Shown: positions 3,921-64,000 of the stretch, in pieces | Layout: each line of letters begins with the position of its first letter | Position numbering within the stretch: position 1 is the stretch's first letter | Assembly: GCF_027579695.1 (NCBI RefSeq) | Contig: NC_083570.1 | Coordinates: 96,041,463 to 96,105,462, forward strand | Direction of reading: 5' to 3' | From: Neoarius graeffei | Taxonomy: Eukaryota > Chordata > Actinopteri > Siluriformes > Ariidae | DNA length: 64,000 nucleotides | The notes under the pieces: generated by a model | Told to the model about the DNA's origin: nothing | Database searches by the model: none | Seen by the model: only the letters and a program-made list of their open reading frames with translations | Made by a program: the position numbers and the translations under genes

Positions 3921-4917
3921 AAAATTAGAATATCATGAAAAAATTCAATATTTTACATCAATTATTTCAGAAAATGAAAATTTAATATATTCTAGACTCA
4001 ATATATGTAAACTAAAATGGTTCAAGCATTTTCTATTTTAATTTTGATAATTATGGCCTACAAGGCAAAAATGTTTTTAAAAAATCTCAAAATATTAGAA
4101 TATTTCATTTCAAGTTTGAGTAGAACAGTATAAATACCATGCATCTCTTGTTCTAGTTCAGTACACACAACCAAAAACATGGGGAAGACTGCTAACTTGA
4201 CAATTGTCCAGAAGACGATCATTGACACCCTCCACAAGAAGGGTAAGCCACAGAAGGTCATTGCTGAAAAGGCTGGCTGAAAAGGTGCACAAGCAACAGG
4301 GATGACCACAGCCTTAAGAGAGTTGTCAAGAAAAGTTGATTCAAGAACTTGGGAGAGCTTCACAAGGAATGGATTGAAGTTGGTGTCAGTGCATCAAGAT
4401 CCACCATGCACAGGTGTCTTCAGGAAAGGGGCTGCAACTGTTGCATACCTAATATCAAGCCACTCCTGAACCAGAGACAATGTCAGAAGTGTCTTACCTG
4501 GGATAAGGAGAGAAAGAACTGGACTGTTGCTCAGTGGTCCAAAGTCCTCTTTTCAGATGAAAGTAAATTTTGCATTTCATTTGAAAATCAAGGTCCTAGA
4601 GTCTGGAGGAAGAGTGGAGAGACACAGAATCCAAGGTGCTTGAAGTCCAGTGTGAAGTTTCTGCAGTCTGTGATGATTTGGGGTGCCATGTCATCCGCTG
4701 GTGTTGGTTCACTGTGTTTTATCAAGTCAAAAGTCAACACAGCCATCTACCAGGAGATTTTAGAGCACTTCATGCTTCCATCTGCTGACAAGCTTTATGG
4801 AGATGCCAAGTTCCTTTTCCAGCAGGACTTAGCACCTGCACACAGTGACAAAACTACGACCAAATGGTTTGCTGACCATGATATTACTGTGCTTGATTGG
4901 CCAGCCAACTCACCTGA
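3907..4917 (+). pseudogene. Tc1-like element (family B), transposase truncated before last catalytic Glu
   Basis: The left terminal repeat starts gtgcatctcaaaaaattag. The transposase begins at ATG 4179 (MGKTANLTIVQKTIIDTLHK) with the N-terminal HTH domain, but is stopped by a TGA about 30 codons in. It resumes in other frames with the catalytic part: FSDESKFCISF, VMIWGAMSSAG and FQQDLAPAHSDKT. Homology stops abruptly after WPANSPD at about 4917, so the third acidic residue (normally in PIENLW) and the right TIR are missing. A second copy of the same family lies at 43402-44275 on the minus strand. Confidence 0.88.
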
Positions 4918-4945
4918 CCAAACTGTGTCACTACTTGTAATGTAA

Positions 4946-23608: not shown

Positions 23609-24368
23609 ACTTAAATGGTGCAGCTGAATCGTAAAAAAATTGACAGTAGAACTCATGACTATGTTTAATAGTGAAAGTAAGAGCATTTCCACACGCACAG
23701 TATGACGAGAACTCACAGGATTGGAACAAATGAGCTTTGTGGCCAAAAGAAAATCACTTGTTAATGAAACTAATCAAAAGAAAATGCTTCAATTTATAGG
23801 GAGCATAAAGGACTCTGGAGCAATGGAAAAAGGTCATGTGGCCTGATGAGTCCAAGGTTTACCCTATTCCAGAGCAATGTGTCAGGGTAAGAGGGAAAGC
23901 ACATGAAGCGATGCATCCATCATGCAAAGTGTCCACTGTATAAGCCTCTGGAGGCAGTGTTATGATCTGGGGTTGATTCAGTTGGTCAGGTCGAGGCTCA
24001 GAAATGTTATGGGGCAATAAAATGAAGTCAGCTGATTACCTGAATGTACTGAATGACCAGGTTATCACATCAATGTTTTTTTTTTCTTCTCTGATGGCAC
24101 AGGCATAAAATTAAGGCTCAAACTGTGAAAGAGTGATTCAGGGAACATCAGGAATCATTTTTCTCACATGAATTAACCACCACAGAGTCTTGACTTTAAC
24201 GCCACTGAAAGTCTTTGGGATGTGCTGGAGAAGACTTTACAGAGCAGGTTAAGTCAATTGTGGCAAATGCACACATTAATCAATGCTAAAGGTGGTCCAA
24301 CAAAATATTAGAGTGTGGGACTTGTGTGTAGCTAAAGGTGGTCCAACAAAATATTAGAGTGTGGGACT

Positions 24369-24378
<10 letters not shown>

Positions 24379-24453
<75 letters not shown>
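24379..24453. repeat. (TA)n microsatellite
   Basis: About 36 TA units lie about 110 bp upstream of the cytokine-like gene's TATA box. Confidence 0.95.
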
Positions 24454-24544: not shown

Positions 24545-24567
24545 ACTTCCTGTGTGGTGTATATAAA
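24545..24567 (+). promoter_or_regulatory. Core promoter of the cytokine-like gene: TATA box with ETS/RUNX-like site
   Basis: TATATAAA lies at 24560-24567, 56 bp before the start codon, so transcription should start near 24590. Directly upstream, acttcctgtgtggt joins an ETS core (TTCC) and a RUNX core (TGTGGT), an arrangement known from T-cell promoters. A gaggggaaacc in the leader is near a kappaB consensus. Only the TATA box is strong evidence. Confidence 0.6.
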
Positions 24568-24622
24568 GACAAGCACACAGAGAAAACATTATCACTAGAA
24601 AGTGTCTCTGAGAGGGGAAACC

Positions 24623-24889
24623 ATGAATAAGACACTCATTTTTCTTTTCATACTGTCTCTCAGCCTATCAAGGACTACTGGTGACAGGCCTAATGCGACC
24701 TTCAAGCACCTTATTAATTATCTGGAGAAGTTTCAACATGAAACCATCAATGTTGTAAGTAAATAACTAACACTTCAATTTCACCTGATTGTTTTTGTGT
24801 TTTGATATAAGGTAATATCAAGTGTCACAGTGTCTCTCATTTGTGCATACATTTATAACTATTACATAATGGGTCTCTTTTACAAATGG

Positions 24890-24962
<73 letters not shown>

Positions 24963-25634
24963 TTTATTTTTTCATTTCTTTGTAGACTTCAAATACCAGT
25001 CACAATCGACAAGGGATTTATTGGACTGTAAGTGAAAGTGATTTTATATTATTCATTTTATTCATTTAAAGTGTAAGAGGATCAAATAAATTTTGCTAAA
25101 GGACTGATCAAATCAGTCCTTTAGCAAAAATGCAATGCAGAGCAACAGATAATTTTATTCTTATTATTCTACACTAGTGTGATACTTCCATAGAGATCTT
25201 TGAAGAGCTGAATGCAGTCCTGGACAAGATCAATGGAGATGGACTCTCTCAAAACAAACATCAAGAACTGAAGGGAATGAAGGAAAATTTAAAAATAGTA
25301 ATTGAGAAGTTTTCCCTGCAACCTGTACAGGTAAGCTGATGATTTGATACACATTTTAACCGAAAAACAACAAATATAAAAGTTATTTATCAATATAATT
25401 ATGGTTGTTAATGTGCTATTTTGTAATAACTTTTCAAATAACTCCACATTCACTGGACTAAAGCCTTTTTAGATTAATTATAAGATTGTTGATGTTTTCC
25501 TCCCCACCCTTTTTTTTTTCTTAAAGGAGGAAAAAAAGTGTTATTCCAAATATTCCAGAAAGCCTTTGGGATGGTACTACAAAATGCTACAGTGCTTTAA
25601 CCGTTCCTGCAGTGTTACTTCAAAGCAAAGTTAA
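24623..25634 (+). CDS. Secreted four-exon short-chain cytokine-like gene (IL-5/GM-CSF/IL-4/13 or IL-2 type)
   Basis: Coding exons are 24623-24754, 24986-25027, 25178-25330 and 25527-25634, giving 144 residues. Every intron is GT-AG and phase 0. Residues 1-20 (MNKTLIFLFILSLSLSRTTG) form a signal peptide. N-glycosylation sequons are N24, N47 and N134. Cysteines are C59, C114, C132 and C137. The four-exon, all-phase-0 plan with a tiny second exon is the plan of the IL-2/IL-4/IL-5/IL-13/GM-CSF helical cytokines, and the 14-codon exon 2 equals that of mammalian GM-CSF as I remember it. Exon 3 starts CDTSIEIFEELNAVL and exon 4 starts EEKKCYSKY, which resembles the first-cysteine and KKC contexts of IL-5. 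Exact orthology is unresolved. Its role would be secreted immune signalling. The mRNA should be unstable because the 3' UTR is rich in ATTTA. Confidence 0.8.
24895..24959. repeat. (TA)n microsatellite in intron 1
   Basis: About 32 TA units end 27 bp before the exon 2 acceptor. Confidence 0.95.
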
Positions 25635-25693
25635 CTTATTATTCTCACTTACTGTATATGAAATGACTATTTATTATGAACATGTTATTTATT

Positions 25694-25736
25694 ACCCTGT
25701 AGAACAGGATAAAGCGGCTAGAGATAATGAGATGAG
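25694..25736 (+). mobile_element. 5'-truncated Mermaid-like SINE tail in the 3' UTR
   Basis: Only the last 43 bp of the SINE are present (ctgtagaacaggataaagcg onward). They are flanked by a perfect 12-bp duplication ATGTTATTTATT at 25682-25693 and 25737-25748. This is a true severely truncated insertion, primed by LINE machinery. Confidence 0.9.
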
Positions 25737-26088
25737 ATGTTATTTATTTAATTCCACATATTTATTTGTATTTATTTGTAACTTAAAAATTTTAAATTAT
25801 ATTTCTGCAGACATGCACTGTCTTTGTTGAATGTAAAAAAACAAGCAAGAATGCAATTTCTGTTTGAAGTGTTTTATTATAATACAGCATATCCAGTGTT
25901 TACAGACAGAATGGTGAGGCTAGACTTTTTATTTCTGAGACTTAACTCAGCTGACTATGGTCACCATAGAAAATTAATTTTATTATGACAAGCCACTGTT
26001 TTCTTGATACTGAATTGATTCAATAGATGCATAATTCTACATTAAAAACAATGAATGTTGTATACTTCTATCACCTCTTATAAGAGTC

Positions 26089-26094
26089 AATAAA
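26089..26094 (+). terminator. Poly(A) signal AATAAA, cytokine-like gene
   Basis: This is the only canonical hexamer found in the expected 3' UTR. It lies about 455 bp after the stop codon and is followed by T-rich then GT-rich sequence (tttttcctgtggtgtg). Confidence 0.6.
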
Positions 26095-26183
26095 ATTTTT
26101 ATTAATGTACTTTTTCCTGTGGTGTGAATTTTGTGAATGTGCAGCTTAAAATGCAGAATTTGCAGGCAGTGAACAGGGCTCAG

Positions 26184-26549
26184 GGTGGCACGGTGGTGTA
26201 GTGGTTAGCGCTGTCGCCTCACAGCAAGAAGGTCCGGGTTCGAGCCCCATGGCTGGCGAGGACCTTCCTGTGTGGAGTTTGCATGTTCTCCCCGTGTCCG
26301 CGTGGGTTTCCTCTGGGTGCTCCGGTTTCCCCCACAGTCCAAAGACATGCAGGTTAGGTTAACTGGTGACTCGAAATTGACCGTAGGTGTGAATGGTTGT
26401 CTGTGTCTATGTGTTAGTCCTGTGATGACCTGGTGACTTGTCCAGGGTGTACCCCGGCTTTCGCCCGTAGTCAGCTGGGATAGGCTCCAGCTTGCCTGCG
26501 ACCCTGCGGAACAGGATAAAGCGGCTAGAGATAATGAGATGAGATGAGA
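26184..26549 (+). mobile_element. Mermaid-like SINE, full length
   Basis: Head ggtggcacggtggtgtagtg, body with tccaaagacatgcaggttag, and tail aggataaagcggctagag followed by (atgag)n. Confidence 0.95.
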
Positions 26550-26721
26550 CAATATGTGATTGGTGGTGTGATGCTACTCTTGCTCTTCATTATGAAGCAG
26601 GACAAGTCATGTTTGGCTATTTTTTTAAATAATTAAAAGTGCAGGGCCATACCAGTACTTAAATAAAGAAATAAATGAAAGTATTAATTCATAAAATTAA
26701 AGATATATCAGAGAAATATTC

Positions 26722-43401: not shown

Positions 43402-44275
43402 GTACATCTCAAACAATTAGAATATCGTGAAAAAGTTCATGTTTTTCATAATTTAATTCAAAATAGTCAACTTTCATATATTCTATGTTCATTACATGTA
43501 AAGTGAAATATTTCAAGTCTTCTTTGTTTTAATTTTGATTATTATGGCTTATAGCTCATGAAAATCAGAAATCCATTATCTTAAATTATTCAAATATTTC
43601 CCAAGATCAATTAAAAAAAAAAAAAGATTTACAAGACAGAAAAGTCCAACTTGTGAAAAGTATGTTCATTTATACATTTAACACTTGGTTGGGGCTCCTT
43701 TACCATGAATTACTGCATCAGTATGGTGTGGCATGGAGGCAATCAGCCTGTGCACTGCTGAGGTGTTATTGAAGCCCAGGTTGCTCTGATAGTGGTCTTC
43801 AGCACATCTGTATTTTTGGGTTGGGTGTTTCTCATCTTCCTCTTGACAATACCCCATAGATTCTTGATGGGGTTCAGGTCAGGCAAGTTGGCTGGCCAAT
43901 CAAGCACAGTAATATCATGGTCAGCAAACCATTTGGTAGTAGTTTTGAAACTGTGGGCAGGTGCTAAGTCCTGCTGGGAAAGGAACTTGGCATCTCCATA
44001 AAGCTTGTTCGCAGATGGAAGCATGACATGCTCTAAAATATCCTGGTAGATGGCTGTGTTGACTTTGGACTTGATAAAACACAGTGGACCAACACCAGCA
44101 GATGACATGGCAGCCCAAATCATCATAGACTGGATTCTGTGCCTCTCCTCTCTTCCTCCAGATTCTCGGACCTTGATTTACAAATGGAATGCAAAATTTA
44201 CTTTCATCTGTGTCCAAGAGTGCAACAATATTCTTCGCAAAGTCTGTGTGTTTAGGGAGTTCTGATGAATGCATG
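43402..44275 (-). pseudogene. Tc1-like element (family B), second copy, catalytic Glu lost
   Basis: The right TIR (gtacatctcaaacaattag) lies at 43402. The transposase on the minus strand has DTDESKFCIPFVNQGPRIW, MMIWAAMSSAGVG and SQQDLAPAHSFKT. The third catalytic block reads PIKNLWGIVKRKMR: the usual Glu of PIENLW is Lys. A frameshift near 44125 separates the first Asp from the rest. The N-terminal HTH and left TIR are missing. Same family as 3907-4917. Confidence 0.88.
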
Positions 44276-47639: not shown

Positions 47640-48910
47640 CGGCATAGAGACAGATGTCATTGCATGGAAGAGTTTATTTACAGGTGTGCACAATATACAA
47701 AACAATGAGGCAAGGTCAAAGTTACAAACTGAAACAAATGAAAGTGAAACCTCAACAGAAATATCAAGTAGAGTTATTAAACTAAACATAAACCAGAGTT
47801 CTTAAACAGAGTATTAAACATGGCTGAGAATAAACAAGAGCATAGAGACAGATACAATAATACTTCATGACATTAGTGTGCAACCAGTGTCCTTTTATGT
47901 GCATGTGCTGATTGCGTTCCAATCAACAACAGTTGTTTGCAATGAGCCAGTTGTCCCAAGAGTGCGCATTATGTGCTCCGTGTGTGTTGGTGAGAGTGGG
48001 ACACTGAGCCAGGCTCAGGCATGGAAAGGCATGACAGAACCCCCAAAGAGCTCCCTCTGGGAGCTAAAGTCCTCTTTGGGCTGTCTTGGGCAAAATGAGC
48101 CCGCCATGAAAAGATGTCCCTCTCAGAGCTCCACACAGGTTCTGGGCGGACATGGCACAAGAACCTAGGCTTAGGCGGGGGCTTGGGCTTGGGTTGGGAT
48201 TTGAACAGGGGCAAGGACACAGACTGAGGCTTGGGTTCTGGTCGAGACATGGACTTGGGCTTAGACTTCTGACAGGACATGGGCTCAGGATCTGGACAGG
48301 ACTCAGGCTCCAGACAGGGCATGGACAAGGGCTCGGGTTCTGGACAGGACCTCGGCTTTGGTTCGGGCTCTGGACTAGGCATGGACTCTGGACAGGGCAT
48401 GGACATGGGCTCGGGTTTTAGACAGGATGTAGGATTGGGCTCAGGCTCTGGACTAGATGTGGGCACCAGACTGAACTTGGATGTAAGCACGGTTTCAGGC
48501 ATGGACATGGACTCTAGACAAGATATAGCTTCAGGCAAGGACATGGGCTCCGAAGAAGACATGGATTCAGGCATAGACATGGTTTCAGGCATGGACATGG
48601 GCTCCAGACAAGACATGGTTTCAGGCATGAACATGGTTTCAGGCATGACTCTGGGCTTGAGCATGGGCATGTACCCTGACATTGGCATGGGTATGAATTC
48701 CAACATGGGCATGGACACAGGCATCAGCATGGGCATGGACTCAGGCAGCACTTTGAACTCCACACACACTGCACTCAATCCAGCTCCTGAGCACTCCTTT
48801 CTGCACCTCCATTTTTTCCTCTCCCTAATATCAAATAAAAGAGAACTGAGTTTTCCCTTCAGTTCCTGGATCAGTGTCTGTGTTCTGCCTGTCACAGTCA
48901 TAAGTTGCTA
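47640..48910. other. Repetitive region, possible LTR/leader of a retroelement
   Basis: The 3' side (ataaaagagaactgagtttt at 48834, then cctgtcacagtcataag at 48889) has the look of an R/U5 end followed by a primer-binding site. The partner LTR is not found, so this is tentative. Confidence 0.3.
48150..48770. repeat. Degenerate 6/12/18-bp minisatellite, open on both strands
   Basis: Built from variants of ggcatggacatgggctc and ggctctggacagg. Because units are multiples of three and stop-poor, a 310-codon frame is open on the minus strand (47969-48901; PMSMPE/PEPEP-type repeats) and a 277-codon frame on the plus (48279-49112; Gly/Met/Asp/Ser repeats). Neither has a recognised domain or codon evidence of being a gene. 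Confidence 0.8.
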
Positions 48911-55211: not shown

Positions 55212-57349
55212 CTACAGCATACGTTTCAAAGATTCAGCAATATTGAGCCAAGTGTCCAGACTCTTTTCCGATGCTCCATTTATATGAGCTGTAGAGAGCT
55301 CCATATATATGATATCCAAGAAAAGGAGGGTCCAAGTTTGAATAGACAGGTCATGAGGTGGTTTCCAGCGAGTTGCAATCATTTTCTTAGCCACTGTAAG
55401 TCCAGCAAATACAGCACGCTTTAGCACTTTAGAGACATGAAGGGCTGACAGGTCATTCAAAATCGAAACACTAAGAGTAACAGGTACAGTATCATTAATC
55501 AAGGTAGACAGATTGGATGCAATATTGTTCCAAAACTGATAGGCAGGAGAGCAATCCCGGATCATGTGAAGATATGTACCTTGAGCTTTTAGTGGGCAGA
55601 AAGTGCATAAAGGACTGTTAATTATTTTCATGTGATGCATTTTCACAGGGGTGAGGTACATCCTATGAATGAAATTGTAGTGGATCTGCTGGTGGTCTGG
55701 ATTGCGTGATACTTCTGTGATGTTAGACCATACATCATGCCAATCAAGTTCGTCATTCAGATCTGGGCAATTGCGTTCCCAGCTCCTCTCTACAGGGAGG
55801 CCAAAGCGGCCAGGTATCACCAGAAACTGATAAAGCCTAGACACCATACCCTTGTTTTTTGACTGCACAGTAAATAATTTCCTGATTGGATGGGTGGGCA
55901 AAGATCTCTGCCAGGGGACACCATATGCCTTAAGTGCTGATCTTAATTGAAGGTAAAATAAAAATGAGGAATGTGGCAGACTGAATGTGTTTTGTAAATC
56001 AGAGAAAGGTAACAAGCCAACCTCACTAAATGTCTTTTAGATAATGAACCCCCCTCTGTTCCCACTGTGGAGCCGTTATAGACCTACCACCAATCAAAAG
56101 TGCTTTATTATTAAATAATGGAGAAAGTGTATGCCAGTTACATGAAATATGGCAATATGTTTCGACCAATCTCCAAACCTTGATGAGATGAGAGATAATA
56201 GGGCCAAAGCGTAGCTGGCATTGTTTATTAGAAGTGTTGGCAAAGAGAACATCATGTAGTGACCATGGTTCTGTCAGAGTACTTTCTAAAGTACACTAGG
56301 AAACAGAGGCATCTGGATCAAACCAGGTAAGGAGAGGTCTTAACACAAAGGACCAAAAATAAAATTTAAAGTTGGGAACTGAAAGGTCACCATCTTCCTT
56401 CCTCCTCTGTAAAGTGGACATCTTAAGTCGCAGCCGCTTGCCTTTCCAAATAAATTTAGATACCGCTGATTGCATTTTACGCCAATAACCATAAGGAGGG
56501 GAAAGAAGGAACATAGAGCTCACAGAATTAATCCTGGGTAAAACATTCATTTTCATAACCAAGATACGAGCTTGAATAGACGTGGGAAGACACCCATTTT
56601 TCCATGTCTTTCAAAGCATTGTTCTGAGCAACTGAGTAGTTATGTTTAACAATCCTAACAATCTTTAAGGAGGGGAAAACTTCAATGCCTAGAAATTTAA
56701 ACTGTTTAACAACAGGGGTGTTAACAGAGATGCTTAAATTGCTAGCGGAGTCATTCAAATGAAGTAGCGCAGATTTTGACCAGTTAATTCTAAAACCAGA
56801 CAAGCAACCATACTCCTCACATATGGACAAAAGGTGAGGAATAGTCTGAGAGGGATTTTCTAAAAATACCATAACATCATCCGCAAACAGTGAGAGGTGA
56901 TGCTGTGTATTACAAATACATATTGGCGACACCATACTAGATTGGCGAATGGCTTGAGCCAGAGGCTCTAGGGAGAGGACAAATAACGCAGGGCTCAGGG
57001 GACAACCTTGGCGTGAGGATCTAGAAACTGGAAATAAGGAGGAAAAGGTGCGTCCAGTTAAGACTCGGACTGACGGGTTAGAATACATAACTTTAATCAT
57101 TCCAATGAAAGTATTACCAAAGCCCATCACCTCTAAGACTGACCATAAAAATGACCATTCGAGTCTGTCAAAAGCTTTCATTGCATCCAGAGAAAGCAGT
57201 GACATTGGTATCTTGCTCCCCTCTGCAGCATCAATAATGTGGAGAAGGCGTCTAACATTATCTGCTGCCATTCTCGTTTTTATGAATCCTATTTGGTCAG
57301 GCTTAACTAATTTTGGCATATAGGACTCCAGACAGTGGGCTAGTAGTAG
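55212..57349 (-). pseudogene. L1/Tx1-like ORF2, RT C-terminal half
   Basis: The minus-strand frame from 57349 reads LLAHCLESYMPKLVKPDQIG, MSLLSLDAMKAFDRLEWSFL (first Asp), SSRQGCPLSPALFVLSLEPL and LSLFADDVMVFLENP (FADD). After frame changes near 56560 and 56290, the C-terminal part (56015-55212) reads WHDVWSNITEVSRNPDHQQI and a C-x2-C-x-H-type FCPLKAQGTYLHMIRDC, ending ESLKRML. L1/Tx1 clade is inferred from the RQGCPLSP and FADD contexts and length. Confidence 0.87.
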
Positions 57350-57774
57350 TAGTACTTTATTGTCACCATACAAGTACAGTGAGATGTTGTTTAGAAACAG
57401 CCCACAGATGTCCATAAAATAATAAGTAAATTAAGTAGTTTAAACAATATAGGTACTGTACATCAATATTTAAAATATATATAGAAAATATAAGATACAC
57501 AATAAATATATACAATCAAATGTACTGGTAAGGTTGGAAGTGATTATATAAAATTAAGATAAATAATAAATAGGTGCAGGGTTCAGGTATTCACTGACCA
57601 AGTTAGCAGCGCAGTAGAGATAGATTAATGTTGGTATGGGACACATACCCCCCCCACACACACACAGTTGGTAAGTTAAAAATAGAGGTATAAATAGTAA
57701 TAGTAATAAGTAAGGTGCAAGTGAGTCATCATATTACATTACAAAGCTGTGGCCACAGAATGCAGTATAGTTAC

Positions 57775-58718: not shown

Positions 58719-60070
58719 TACCCAGACCAATGCACAGGGTCTTATTGCACAGTCCCCACTACACAGTCCAGGAAAGCAGGGGTCAGTATCAGTAATGTTC
58801 TAGTACAGTGATCACACTATTGGACAGACAGTGATCACACTATTGGACAGACATCCCCCCTACCCCCAGCCCACACACACGCACACACAGCCTGCGGCTA
58901 CAGGCACACACACACATACCTCCAGGTTTCCCAGCCTGGGGGGACCACTGGCATCTCACAGTTCAGCACATCCTGAAGTAATGAGGGGGGGCAGGTGATG
59001 CATGGAGTTCAAAAGTCTGATGGCAGTAGGATAGAAACTGTTCTTCAGTCTTGTAGTGCGGCTGCGCAGCGTCCTGAAGCGTCTGCCAGATGGCAGCATG
59101 GTGAAGAGCCTGTGACCGGGGTGTGTGTGATCCTTCAGTATGTTTATTACTCTGTTTGTGCAGCGTGTGTGATGGATCTCCTCAAGTGTGGGGAGTTGAC
59201 TGCCAATGATCCTCTGTGCCGTTTTAATGATGCGCTGTAGTGTCTTCTTGTTATTGGAGGTGCAGTTGGAGTACCATGATGTAATGCAGTATGTAATGAC
59301 TGATTCAACAGTGCAGCGGTAGAAATTGATGAGCAGATTTTGTGGTAATTGGGCCTTCTTCAGTGTCCGCAGGAAGTGCAGCCTTTGGGCCCCCTTTTTG
59401 GCTATTGCCGAGGTGTTGGTGGCCCATGACAGGTCCTGGCTTATGTAAACTCCCAGGAACCTAAAGCTCTGCACCACCTCCACTGACTCCCCTCCAATGC
59501 TGATGGATTGGTGGTGGTTACCCTGGCCACGCCGCCTGAAGTCCAAGATCACCTCCTTCGTCTTCTTGGAGTTCAGGGCCAGGTTGTTATCTTGGCTCCA
59601 ACGTGCCAGGTGCTCCACCTCTTCCCTGTAGGCCGACTCGTTGTTGTTGGAAATCAGGCCAATCACAGTTGTATCATCAGCAAACTTCACGATTGTGTTC
59701 GTGCTGTGCTTAGGAACACAGTCATGTGTGAAGAGGGAGTAGAGAAGGGGGCTGAGCACACATCCCTGCGGCACGCCTGTGTTCAAGGTGATGGGTCTTG
59801 AGTGGAGTTTGCCCATGCGCACAGACTGAGGTCTGTTACTGAGGAGGTCCAGTATCCATCTGCAGAGCTGGGGACTGAAGCCGAGGTTGTACAGCTTAGT
59901 GGCCAGCTTGAGAGGGGGGGATGGTGTTAAACGCCGAGCTATAGACCCTTTTCATGTGACGTCGTGACAAACGCGGCCACCATTTTGGACATGTACTACC
60001 AGTAGTTTACCACAGCCAACACTGAGGAATGGCAGCAAAGAAAGTTTTTACTTTCAGCAAGACTTCCATC

Positions 60071-60854: not shown

Positions 60855-61140
60855 ATGGCGATGGGTTTTTAATGACATAGGTATACAGATCATGTGGGCC
60901 GAAGTCAGGTAAAGACGAGGGCTTCGTGTACTTCCGTACGTCAGTGAACAATCCTGGTGGAAGCAGGTAAACGTTGTCCTCTAAGCCTGCTAACCTCAAT
61001 TTTTGCAAATACCTCTCCCTCTGCTCCCCCTGTAAATGCCCTACGTCGCTGGATAGTGAAGGTATTTTCTGCATCTCGCTCCTTTTTCTTTTATGTTTTT
61101 CGTTTGTCGCCTTCCTTGCATTCAAACTGATTCGAGCCAA
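60855..61140 (-). CDS. Exon of a probable SWIM/YqaJ-type protein, antisense
   Basis: From M at 61140 it reads MARISLNARKATNEKHKRKR, then LEDNVYLLPPGLFTDVRKYT, then DLYTYVIKNPSPYT. The NPSPYT ending parallels HPSPF in the exon at 31056-31301, and both face a THAP exon. No downstream exons exist here. Function is unassigned; the family link is from memory. Confidence 0.5.
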
Positions 61141-63153
61141 AGTCCACTACATGTCCAAAATGGTGGTCGTGTTTACGAAGGTCACGTGACTGAAAAGGGT
61201 CTACTGTATAGTCAATGAATAGCATATGCACATAACTGTTTGGTTCATCCAGGTGTGAGAAGGCAGTGTGAAAGGCCCATGAAATACCGTCCTCCGTTGA
61301 TCTGTTAGTCCTGTATGCAAACTGATGTGGGTCGAGGGATGGGGGGGTGTTGGATTTGATGTGAGCTAGCACCAGTCGTTCAAAGCACTTCATCACAATG
61401 GGCGTGAGTGCTACTGGGCGATAGTCATTCAGAGACTTGATGGCCGCCTGCTTGGGGACAGGAACAATGGTGCTGGTTTTAAGGCAGGTGGGGACTGCAG
61501 CTTGGTCCAGGGAGATGTTGAACAGGTTAGTGAAGACTGTGCTTAGTTGGCCTGCACAGTATTTTAGGACCTTTCTGGGAACTCCGTCTGGTCCTGGTGC
61601 TTTGCGAAGGTTAATGCTGCCGAGGGCCCACCTAACCTCGTGTTCGCTTAGCACCAGTGCATGTGATGCAGTGTCCATAAGTTCAATGGGGGGTTGGGGA
61701 ATGGGTCCCTCATCAAACCGTGCAAAGAATTTGTTGAGGTCATCAGGGAGGGTTGGGTTGTGAGAGCTGGGCAGACAGGGGTTGGTGCTCTTGTAATCGG
61801 TGTAGGATTTGATGCCCTGCCACATGTGTCTGGGGTCAGAGTCCACAAAGTGCTGCTCTATTTTTTCTTTATAGGAGTGCTTAGCTTCCCTGATGCTCCT
61901 CTTCAGGTTGGCCCTGGCTACTGTGTAGGCTGCCTGGTCGCCGGAGTGAAAAGCCTTGTCTCTGATTGCCAGCTGGTTCTGGACTTGTCTGTTCATCCAG
62001 GGCTTGTGATTTGGAAAGGTGCGAATGGTCTTGTGGGTGGTAACATTGTCTACACAGAAGCTAATGTAATCCAGAACAGAAGATGCATATGTATTTAGGT
62101 CTGATTGTCTATCCAAGGTAGAGATAGAATTAAAAAGTTCCCAGTCAGTGTCCTCAAAACAGTCTTGCAAGCATTCAATAGCTCCTTCAGGCCAGACTCT
62201 GATGATCTGGCTAGTAGGCTTTGACCTCGCAATGAGAGGCTTATATGCAGGGGTTAAGAACAGAGGAATGTGGTCGCAGCATCCGAGGTGGGGGGAGGGG
62301 GATGCCTTGTATGCGTTGGCAATGTTACAGTAAACAACGTCTAGTGTATTCTTTCCTCTGGTTGGAAAATCCACAAACTGATAGAATTTAGGCAGAACAG
62401 ACTTCAATTTAGCATGGTTAAAGTCTCCAGCTATAATGAACACAGCGTCGGGGTGAGAGTTTTGCAAGTCGCTGATGCTGTCATAAAGTTTGCTCAGTGC
62501 CATCTTAGCATTAGCTTGAGGAGGAATGTAAACAGTGAGGAGAAACACCGCAGTGAATTCTCTTGGAAGATGAAACGGTCTACATTGCAAAGAAATAAAC
62601 TCCAAATCCGGAGAGCAATGTTGTTCTGTGATAATAACAGAGGTACACCAAGAGTTACTCACATAAGTACACACACCTCCACCTTTGTATTTGCCGGAGT
62701 TAGCAGTTCGGTCGGCCCGGTATACAGTCCAGCCGGCAATCTGAATAGCCGAGTCGGGGATGTTAGCGTTTAGCCATGTCTCCGTGAAGAGTAGGGCACA
62801 GCTGTTCCACTTCTGTGTCGAGATCCTAAGTCTCAACTCGTCCATCTTGCTGGTTAAGGACTGGGTGTTCACGAGGACTAAGCTGGGGAGTGGAGGTTTG
62901 TGAGGGCAGTTTTTCAGCCTCATCTGGATGCCGCCTCTCTTACCCCGCTTCTTTCTCCTGTATCTCCTCCGACGATGGTATGACTTGGCTCGATTGTTTA
63001 CCCACGCAGGCACAGTGGTTCTAAGTAGTTCTTCAGGAATATCCGTGGGTGGTGGAGGAATAAAGCCTTCCAGTCCAATATCGGTGAGTTCTTCCAGACT
63101 GTAAACAATGCATGCTCTCACTGATTGTAGACTGTTGCTAATCCTTACTAGCC

Positions 63154-64000
63154 TTACCGCTGCCATACTGCCAAGAAGGGACCCAGCTGTTCCCAGAAAG
63201 TTGCATAAAACTCAGGGGGTATCCCATCAAAGCCTGGTGATTTACCCCTTTGCGTACTCTGTACTGCCACACTTAATTCCTCTATGGTAATCACTTTGTC
63301 TAAGTCAGCTGATTCCTCTACTGATAATTGAGGCAAGTTCAGCTGATTTAACCAACTGTCACAGTGGGTTTTGTCCAAAGAAACCTCTGATTCACATAAA
63401 TCGGAGTAGAAGGCCTGAAAGGTTTTATTGATCTCCTCAGGATCAGATCTGATGATGCCGTCTGTAGATTTAATGACAGGTATATCTGCAAAATGATCAC
63501 TGGACCTAATTCTCATGGCAAGTAAGTGACTAGGCCTAGCGCCGTGGAAATAGTAGCACTGTCTCGTCCTATGAATTAGAAATTCAGATTCCTGTTTCAG
63601 AATGTTGGTTATTTCTTTCTTGACCAGTGAGCGTTCCAAAGCTATTTGATCAGTGACATTTGTAGCAGTACGTCTAACCTGGTGAATTCAGTTTCAAGAT
63701 TTTGAAGCTGAAGTGACCTAGCTTTGTGTTTATTGGAACAGAATAGTATAGTATTGCTCCTAATAAAACCTTTTATTGCATCCCACAATATCCTGGGGTC
63801 TGCTACAGAGCCAACATTAAGTTCTGCAAATATCTGAAATTCTGTGATGAACTGAGCGATATAAGATTCATTTCTCAACAAAGAAGTATTGAAACGCCAT
63901 CTAACAGCACGTTGAGACAGTCTGCCAAGGGTGGTGGAGCAAAGGACACCTTTATGGTCAGACAATGCTATTGGAAGTAACACCGCCTTCTCAATGGAAT
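63154..64000 (-). pseudogene. L1/Tx1-like ORF2, linker and RT start, cut by window edge
   Basis: Frame 63983-63642 has LSDHKGVLCSTTLGR (end of endonuclease, SDH) and the linker; frame 63639-63154 has YYFHGARPSHLLAMRI, IEELSVAVQSTQRGKSPGFD and GIPPEFYATFWEQLGPFLAV. Homology ends at the inserted LINE's ATG. There is one frameshift near 63640. Confidence 0.87.

Follow-up and report, generated by a model that had tools for sequence, protein, structure and literature searches.

Whether a four-exon frame lying among mobile elements of the catfish Neoarius graeffei is a genuine cytokine gene, and to which short-chain family it would then belong, is the question raised by this locus. The window, the whole stretch of 64,000 nucleotides that was analysed, is part of the chromosome labelled C2, on which the candidate gene lies at C2:96066085 (+). 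The gene was described in no title or abstract opening found in the open-licence literature. On the + strand of the window, the gene model contained 4 exons and 3 GT-AG introns of 231, 150 and 196 bp, each in phase 0, and the 44+14+51+35 codons encoded a protein of 144 aa with cysteines at positions 59, 114, 132 and 137. This exon plan, claimed by an earlier sequence-only reading, was confirmed, and the four cysteines, TATA box, signal peptide (called by a hydropathy criterion, not SignalP) and AATAAA that it had listed were all present. The elements were located as follows, in window positions.

24546-24558, + strand: ETS-like (CTTCCT) and RUNX-like (TGTGGT) motifs with 1 base between them, 5' of the TATA box; consensus matches only
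24560-24567, + strand: TATA box TATATAAA
24623-24754, + strand: coding exon 1, 44 codons; signal peptide and predicted helix A
24894-24959, no strand: (TA)33 microsatellite within intron 1
24986-25027, + strand: coding exon 2, 14 codons; A-B loop (by the family plan), sequon N47
25178-25330, + strand: coding exon 3, 51 codons; Cys59, predicted helices B and C
25527-25634, + strand: coding exon 4, 35 codons and stop; Cys114, Cys132 and Cys137; helix D short, weakly predicted
25635-26110, + strand: presumed 3' UTR; 6 ATTTA motifs, AATAAA at 26089, SINE-tail fragment at about 25694-25749

An in-frame stop was found 27 bp 5' of the ATG of exon 1. The GC content was 0.37-0.38 in exons vs 0.19-0.27 in introns, and no exon base fell inside a 14-mer occurring at least 3 times in 314 kb. 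Assuming cleavage after residue 20, the mature protein would have a mass of about 14.6 kDa and a pI of 8.9, with N-glycosylation sequons at N24, N43, N47 and N134 and another, N2, in the signal peptide (pre-protein numbering). The profiles of helix propensity and amphipathicity agreed with a helical reading of exons 1 and 3 and were weak for the last helix. In the promoter region, the ETS-like and RUNX-like pair is no more than suggestive of a T-cell cytokine element, and a minus-strand GATA match at 24594 was positioned 3' of the TATA box and within the presumed leader. The 3' UTR had been called ATTTA-rich; 6 motifs were indeed present vs 2.9 expected, but the excess was weak, since 81 of 1000 shuffles reached 6 and the SINE-tail fragment lies inside this region, and the enrichment is marginal.

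The gene had also been described as embedded in transposons, which was right. LINE reverse-transcriptase ORFs (RVT_1) were detected at 56531-57430, 58959-59951 and 61094-63211, all on the - strand and the last with a score under the curated cut-off, together with Tc1/mariner-type transposase ORFs (DDE_3) at 4340-4942 (+) and 43746-44177 (-). One RVT ORF also matched ALKBH8_N above the cut-off, presumably a LINE-derived profile. The tail of the SINE fragment at 25694-25749 matched many other contigs, and a longer copy, apparently of the same SINE, was located just downstream of the gene at about 26180-26550. Two perfect (TA)n arrays were present within 24285-24452 and 24894-24959, one ending about 110 bp 5' of the TATA box and the other in intron 1, and a perfect 46-bp tandem duplicate was observed at 24285-24375. 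A 312-codon frame at 47972-48907 (-) consisted largely of imperfect MPM/PMS-like repeats in its first 110 residues, the part examined.

In AT-rich DNA of this kind, the frame could be a chance or decayed reading and no functional gene, which would agree with the Pfam and PDB sequence searches (nothing significant; the best E values, 0.053 and 0.23, belonged to unrelated families) and with the donors of introns 1 and 2, weak outside GTAAGT. A scan for the exon plan (signal-peptide-like first exon, four phase-0 exons of family-like sizes, introns of at most 1 kb) over both strands of 314 kb returned models at the candidate locus only, namely 2, one codon apart at the exon 4 start, with a top score of 31.0. 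On the + strand only, the plan appeared in 0/40 64-kb windows and 0/400 3-kb cores of order-1 shuffles, and in 0/60 windows and 0/1000 in order-2 shuffles. The scan thresholds were placed just under the weakest splice sites of the gene, which makes the test post hoc, and these counts describe specificity and not a clean probability. Looser limits gave further models, the best elsewhere scoring 22.7 among the models listed and not repeat-rich, and a stricter long-intron scan found nothing, the candidate gene itself being missed too. A genome-wide protein search for close paralogues, which are thus disfavoured, yielded the gene's own pieces and two weak matches (E 0.46 and 8.96). Viral capture was disfavoured as well, as the 4 pattern matches in viral contigs included no relative. 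With the plan in 0/1,500 shuffled sequences, an intact frame, the exon-intron GC contrast and a position in a cytokine locus standing against it, a non-functional frame is highly improbable. The gene model is more than chance; it is probably a real gene, no second copy of which was found in the genome search, and it very likely encodes a functional short-chain cytokine of some sort.

The chromosomal position was determined with human KIF3A queries. KIF3A exon runs were found at C2:95670304-95704805 (+; 76-93% identity) and C2:95733226-95743025 (+; 48-93%), which placed KIF3A upstream, its end 323 kb from the gene. Higher-bit single matches of the same queries on C13, at C2:12.4 Mb and on C11 (long single frames, 62-67% identity), as well as a match on C27 (76% over 136 aa, remaining pieces 44-69%), are taken as other kinesins. 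On the other side, 52 kb downstream, an intact D1 dopamine receptor ORF was present at C2:96119091-96120176 (+), with the D(1A) dopamine receptor as best PDB match (588 bits vs 488 for D(1B)). The gene sits between KIF3A and this ORF. For zebrafish, IL-4/13B is described with KIF3A and DRD1 as its neighbours on the two sides, an order termed curious by the authors because sea bass and pufferfish have DRD1 together with RAD50; the same account describes a duplication of DRD1 in zebrafish (PMC5440397). As the slot is the same, the candidate is probably a Th2-locus cytokine, and its locus resembles Th2 locus B as arranged in zebrafish.

Synteny with kif3a, rad50 and irf1 had been proposed as a check, and it was positive for kif3a only. 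The Rad50 zinc hook had one match in the genome, on C12 and not C2, as expected if locus A lies elsewhere, and the IRF matches of C2 were far off, at 28.4 and 85.0 Mb; a RAD50 locus and an IRF1 neighbourhood are both disfavoured. Within the KIF3A-DRD1 interval, no second gene of the exon plan was found in the 288 of 376 kb scanned, and adjacency to KIF3A holds for these 288 kb, the other 88 kb (C2:95753001-95841462) lying outside the scan. Upstream of the gene by 68 kb, at C2:95997584-95997634, a signal-peptide-like ORF ended in 17 aa that matched the beginning of the RYK WIF domain with 65% identity, and a GTGAGTG donor followed. No further RYK exons were found in the 314 kb searched at 95.84-96.16 Mb, and this ORF may hold exon 1 of a ryk gene that is displaced or has very long introns, or the match may be due to chance.

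The predicted protein was aligned globally and locally with ten cytokines, and exon by exon with six (24 exon tests, 1000 shuffles each). The score was reached by 3/300 shuffles for human IL-13 (p 0.141 local, 0.346 exon-wise), 103/300 for human IL-4 (p 0.401 and 0.363) and 6/300 for human GM-CSF (p 0.0065 and 0.107), and the lowest whole-protein exon-wise p was that of human IL-2 (0.054). Whole-protein similarity to human and mouse IL-5, human IL-3 and gar IL-5famA, of the IL-3/IL-5/GM-CSF family (IL-5fam), was not above chance. None of the low p-values was consistent from test to test. Among control pairs of the local test, human IL-4 vs IL-13 passed (p 0.004), whereas human IL-5 vs GM-CSF (p 0.487) and gar IL-5famA vs human IL-5 (p 0.724) failed; pairwise alignment has little power to separate short-chain cytokines, accepted IL-5-family relatives failing too. 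The profile comparison that had been suggested gave no family either, as the IL13 profile matched at two genomic sites (E 7.2 and 9.7) and the IL15 profile at three (E 1.5-2.6), none of them on C2, and the Pfam search was not significant.

IL-5 had been put forward as the closest relative, which was not established, whole-protein similarity being not above chance and the p of 0.028 for exon 4 vs human IL-5 standing among 24 exon tests. Exon 3 gave p = 0.004 vs human GM-CSF and 0.031 vs gar IL-5famA (exon ends guessed), also out of these 24 tests, but human IL-2 was equally low for exon 3 (0.032), and the local GM-CSF match paired candidate exon 3 with GM-CSF exons 1-2, structurally out of register. 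Exons 3 and 4 of the candidate each have a cysteine near their start, as in IL-5 and GM-CSF, but this pair is common also to IL-2 and IL-4, and the cysteine near the exon 3 end of gar IL-5famA and GM-CSF was absent from the candidate. Relative to a forward KIF3A, the human genes are ordered IL4(-), IL13(-), RAD50(-), IL5(+); the candidate and KIF3A are both on +, which is the relation of IL5. The cyprinid "IL-5fam?" genes are reported as KIF3A-linked, and their authors, Dijkstra and colleagues (2015), state that none was found in other teleosts (PMC4690019). On this evidence, it is rather unlikely that the candidate is the IL-5fam gene of the locus, signalling through the common beta chain, with IL-4/13B in the remaining 88 kb; a common-beta-chain ligand kept beside IL-4/13B at the KIF3A locus of a non-cyprinid teleost can only be proposed tentatively.

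The gene could also be an IL-2/IL-15/IL-21-type or other short-chain cytokine relocated to the C2 site. Its exon 2 of 42 bp, exon 3 of 153 bp, 144 aa and 6 ATTTA motifs are close to the plan reported for fish IL2, in which exon 2 measures 36 bp in salmonid IL2A and 45-48 bp in IL2B and exon 3 of IL2A 153 bp, with 135-147 aa and 4-7 ATTTA motifs (PMC6070626). The lowest whole-protein p of the exon-wise test, which belongs to human IL-2, and the four cysteines, a number also given for fish IL-2L and salmonid IL-2B, point in this direction, but six cysteines are given for most fish IL-2 and salmonid IL-2A (PMC6070626). Judged by Sprouty, FGF and adenosine-deaminase-domain genes, the FGF2, SPRY1, ADAD1 and IL21 neighbourhood described for fish IL2 (PMC6070626) was not found at the candidate site, which disfavours the IL-2 locus: 0/8 Sprouty matches were on C2, FGF-Sprouty neighbours lay on C12 and C21, an FGF gene on C2 was 6.5 Mb distant and an adenosine-deaminase-domain gene on C2 9.3 Mb. 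The IL15 profile, as noted, had no match on this chromosome, and a relocated cytokine of this type is improbable.

Between IL-4/13B and IL-5fam taken jointly, a Th2-locus cytokine is likely, and the chance that the candidate is specifically catfish IL-4/13B, orthologous to the gene that occupies the KIF3A-DRD1 slot in zebrafish, is judged about even. IL-4/13 genes are described with four exons and three phase-0 introns, and the salmonid proteins with 142-153 aa and 0-3 sequons (PMC4905449), those of sea bass with 142-148 aa and 1-4 sequons (PMC5440397). The equal exon plan counts for IL-4/13B, as do the four cysteines, 144 aa and several sequons, which fit fish IL-4/13, the lack of a second gene of the plan in 288 of the 376 kb and the genome protein search with the candidate and two weak matches only. 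Counting against it are the Pfam and PDB searches without significant match and the IL13 profile without match on C2, the 323 kb from KIF3A with 88 kb of it outside the scan, and the zebrafish DRD1 duplication, one D1 ORF being used as anchor here. The shared orientation with KIF3A counts against it too, human IL4 and IL13 being opposite to KIF3A; this human-based orientation may be no defining trait of fish locus B. The sequence-only reading of a short-chain cytokine gene was supported by the anatomy, and strongly so by the position between KIF3A and DRD1, but the sequence alone cannot decide the family, and IL-4/13B is the parsimonious name, which we infer over IL-5fam. The claim of a shared cytokine exon plan in that reading held for the four exons and phase-0 introns, and a four-helix bundle is the predicted fold.

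As an IL-4/13B, the gene would be transcribed briefly from its TATA promoter in activated T cells or innate lymphoid cells, and the ATTTA motifs would shorten the life of the mRNA. After removal of the signal peptide, a glycosylated bundle would be secreted, with helices from exon 1 (A), exon 3 (B, C) and exon 4 (D) by the family plan (PMC4905449, PMC6070626) and a putative Cys59-Cys114 bond tying it. The protein may then bind IL-4R-alpha-type receptors and elicit type-2 responses. The candidate is probably a real, well-placed gene. If it is IL-4/13B, it helps the reading of type-2 immunity in catfish. Teleosts are reported to retain the common beta receptor chain, with uncertain ligands (PMC4929537, PMC4690019); an IL-5-family gene would be a non-cyprinid ligand, which Dijkstra and colleagues (2015) could not find in non-cyprinid teleosts by their account (PMC4690019), and would bear directly on the survival of the family outside cyprinids.

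Among known systems, the cyprinid "IL-5fam?" genes, compared by description, resemble the candidate in Th2 locus and KIF3A linkage (PMC4690019), and share with gar IL-5famA, the only fish sequence of the family compared, the exon plan and the cysteines near the exon 3 and 4 starts; the whole-protein alignment with spotted gar IL-5famA was not significant, and one gar cysteine is absent from the candidate. Teleost IL-2 and IL-2L are alike in exon sizes, phases, length and ATTTA motifs, but differ in chromosomal neighbourhood, and most IL-2 have six cysteines vs four (IL-2L: four). Human IL-4 and IL-13, the only IL-4/13 sequences compared, showed no consistent similarity, and the strand of the candidate is opposite to the human-based expectation. 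Sea bass IL-4/13B is reported with seven cysteines vs the candidate's four (PMC5440397). In anatomy, teleost IL-4/13B is like the candidate, with four exons, three phase-0 introns, about 145 aa and four cysteines, and in position the likeness is to zebrafish IL-4/13B, which occupies the same slot between KIF3A and DRD1.
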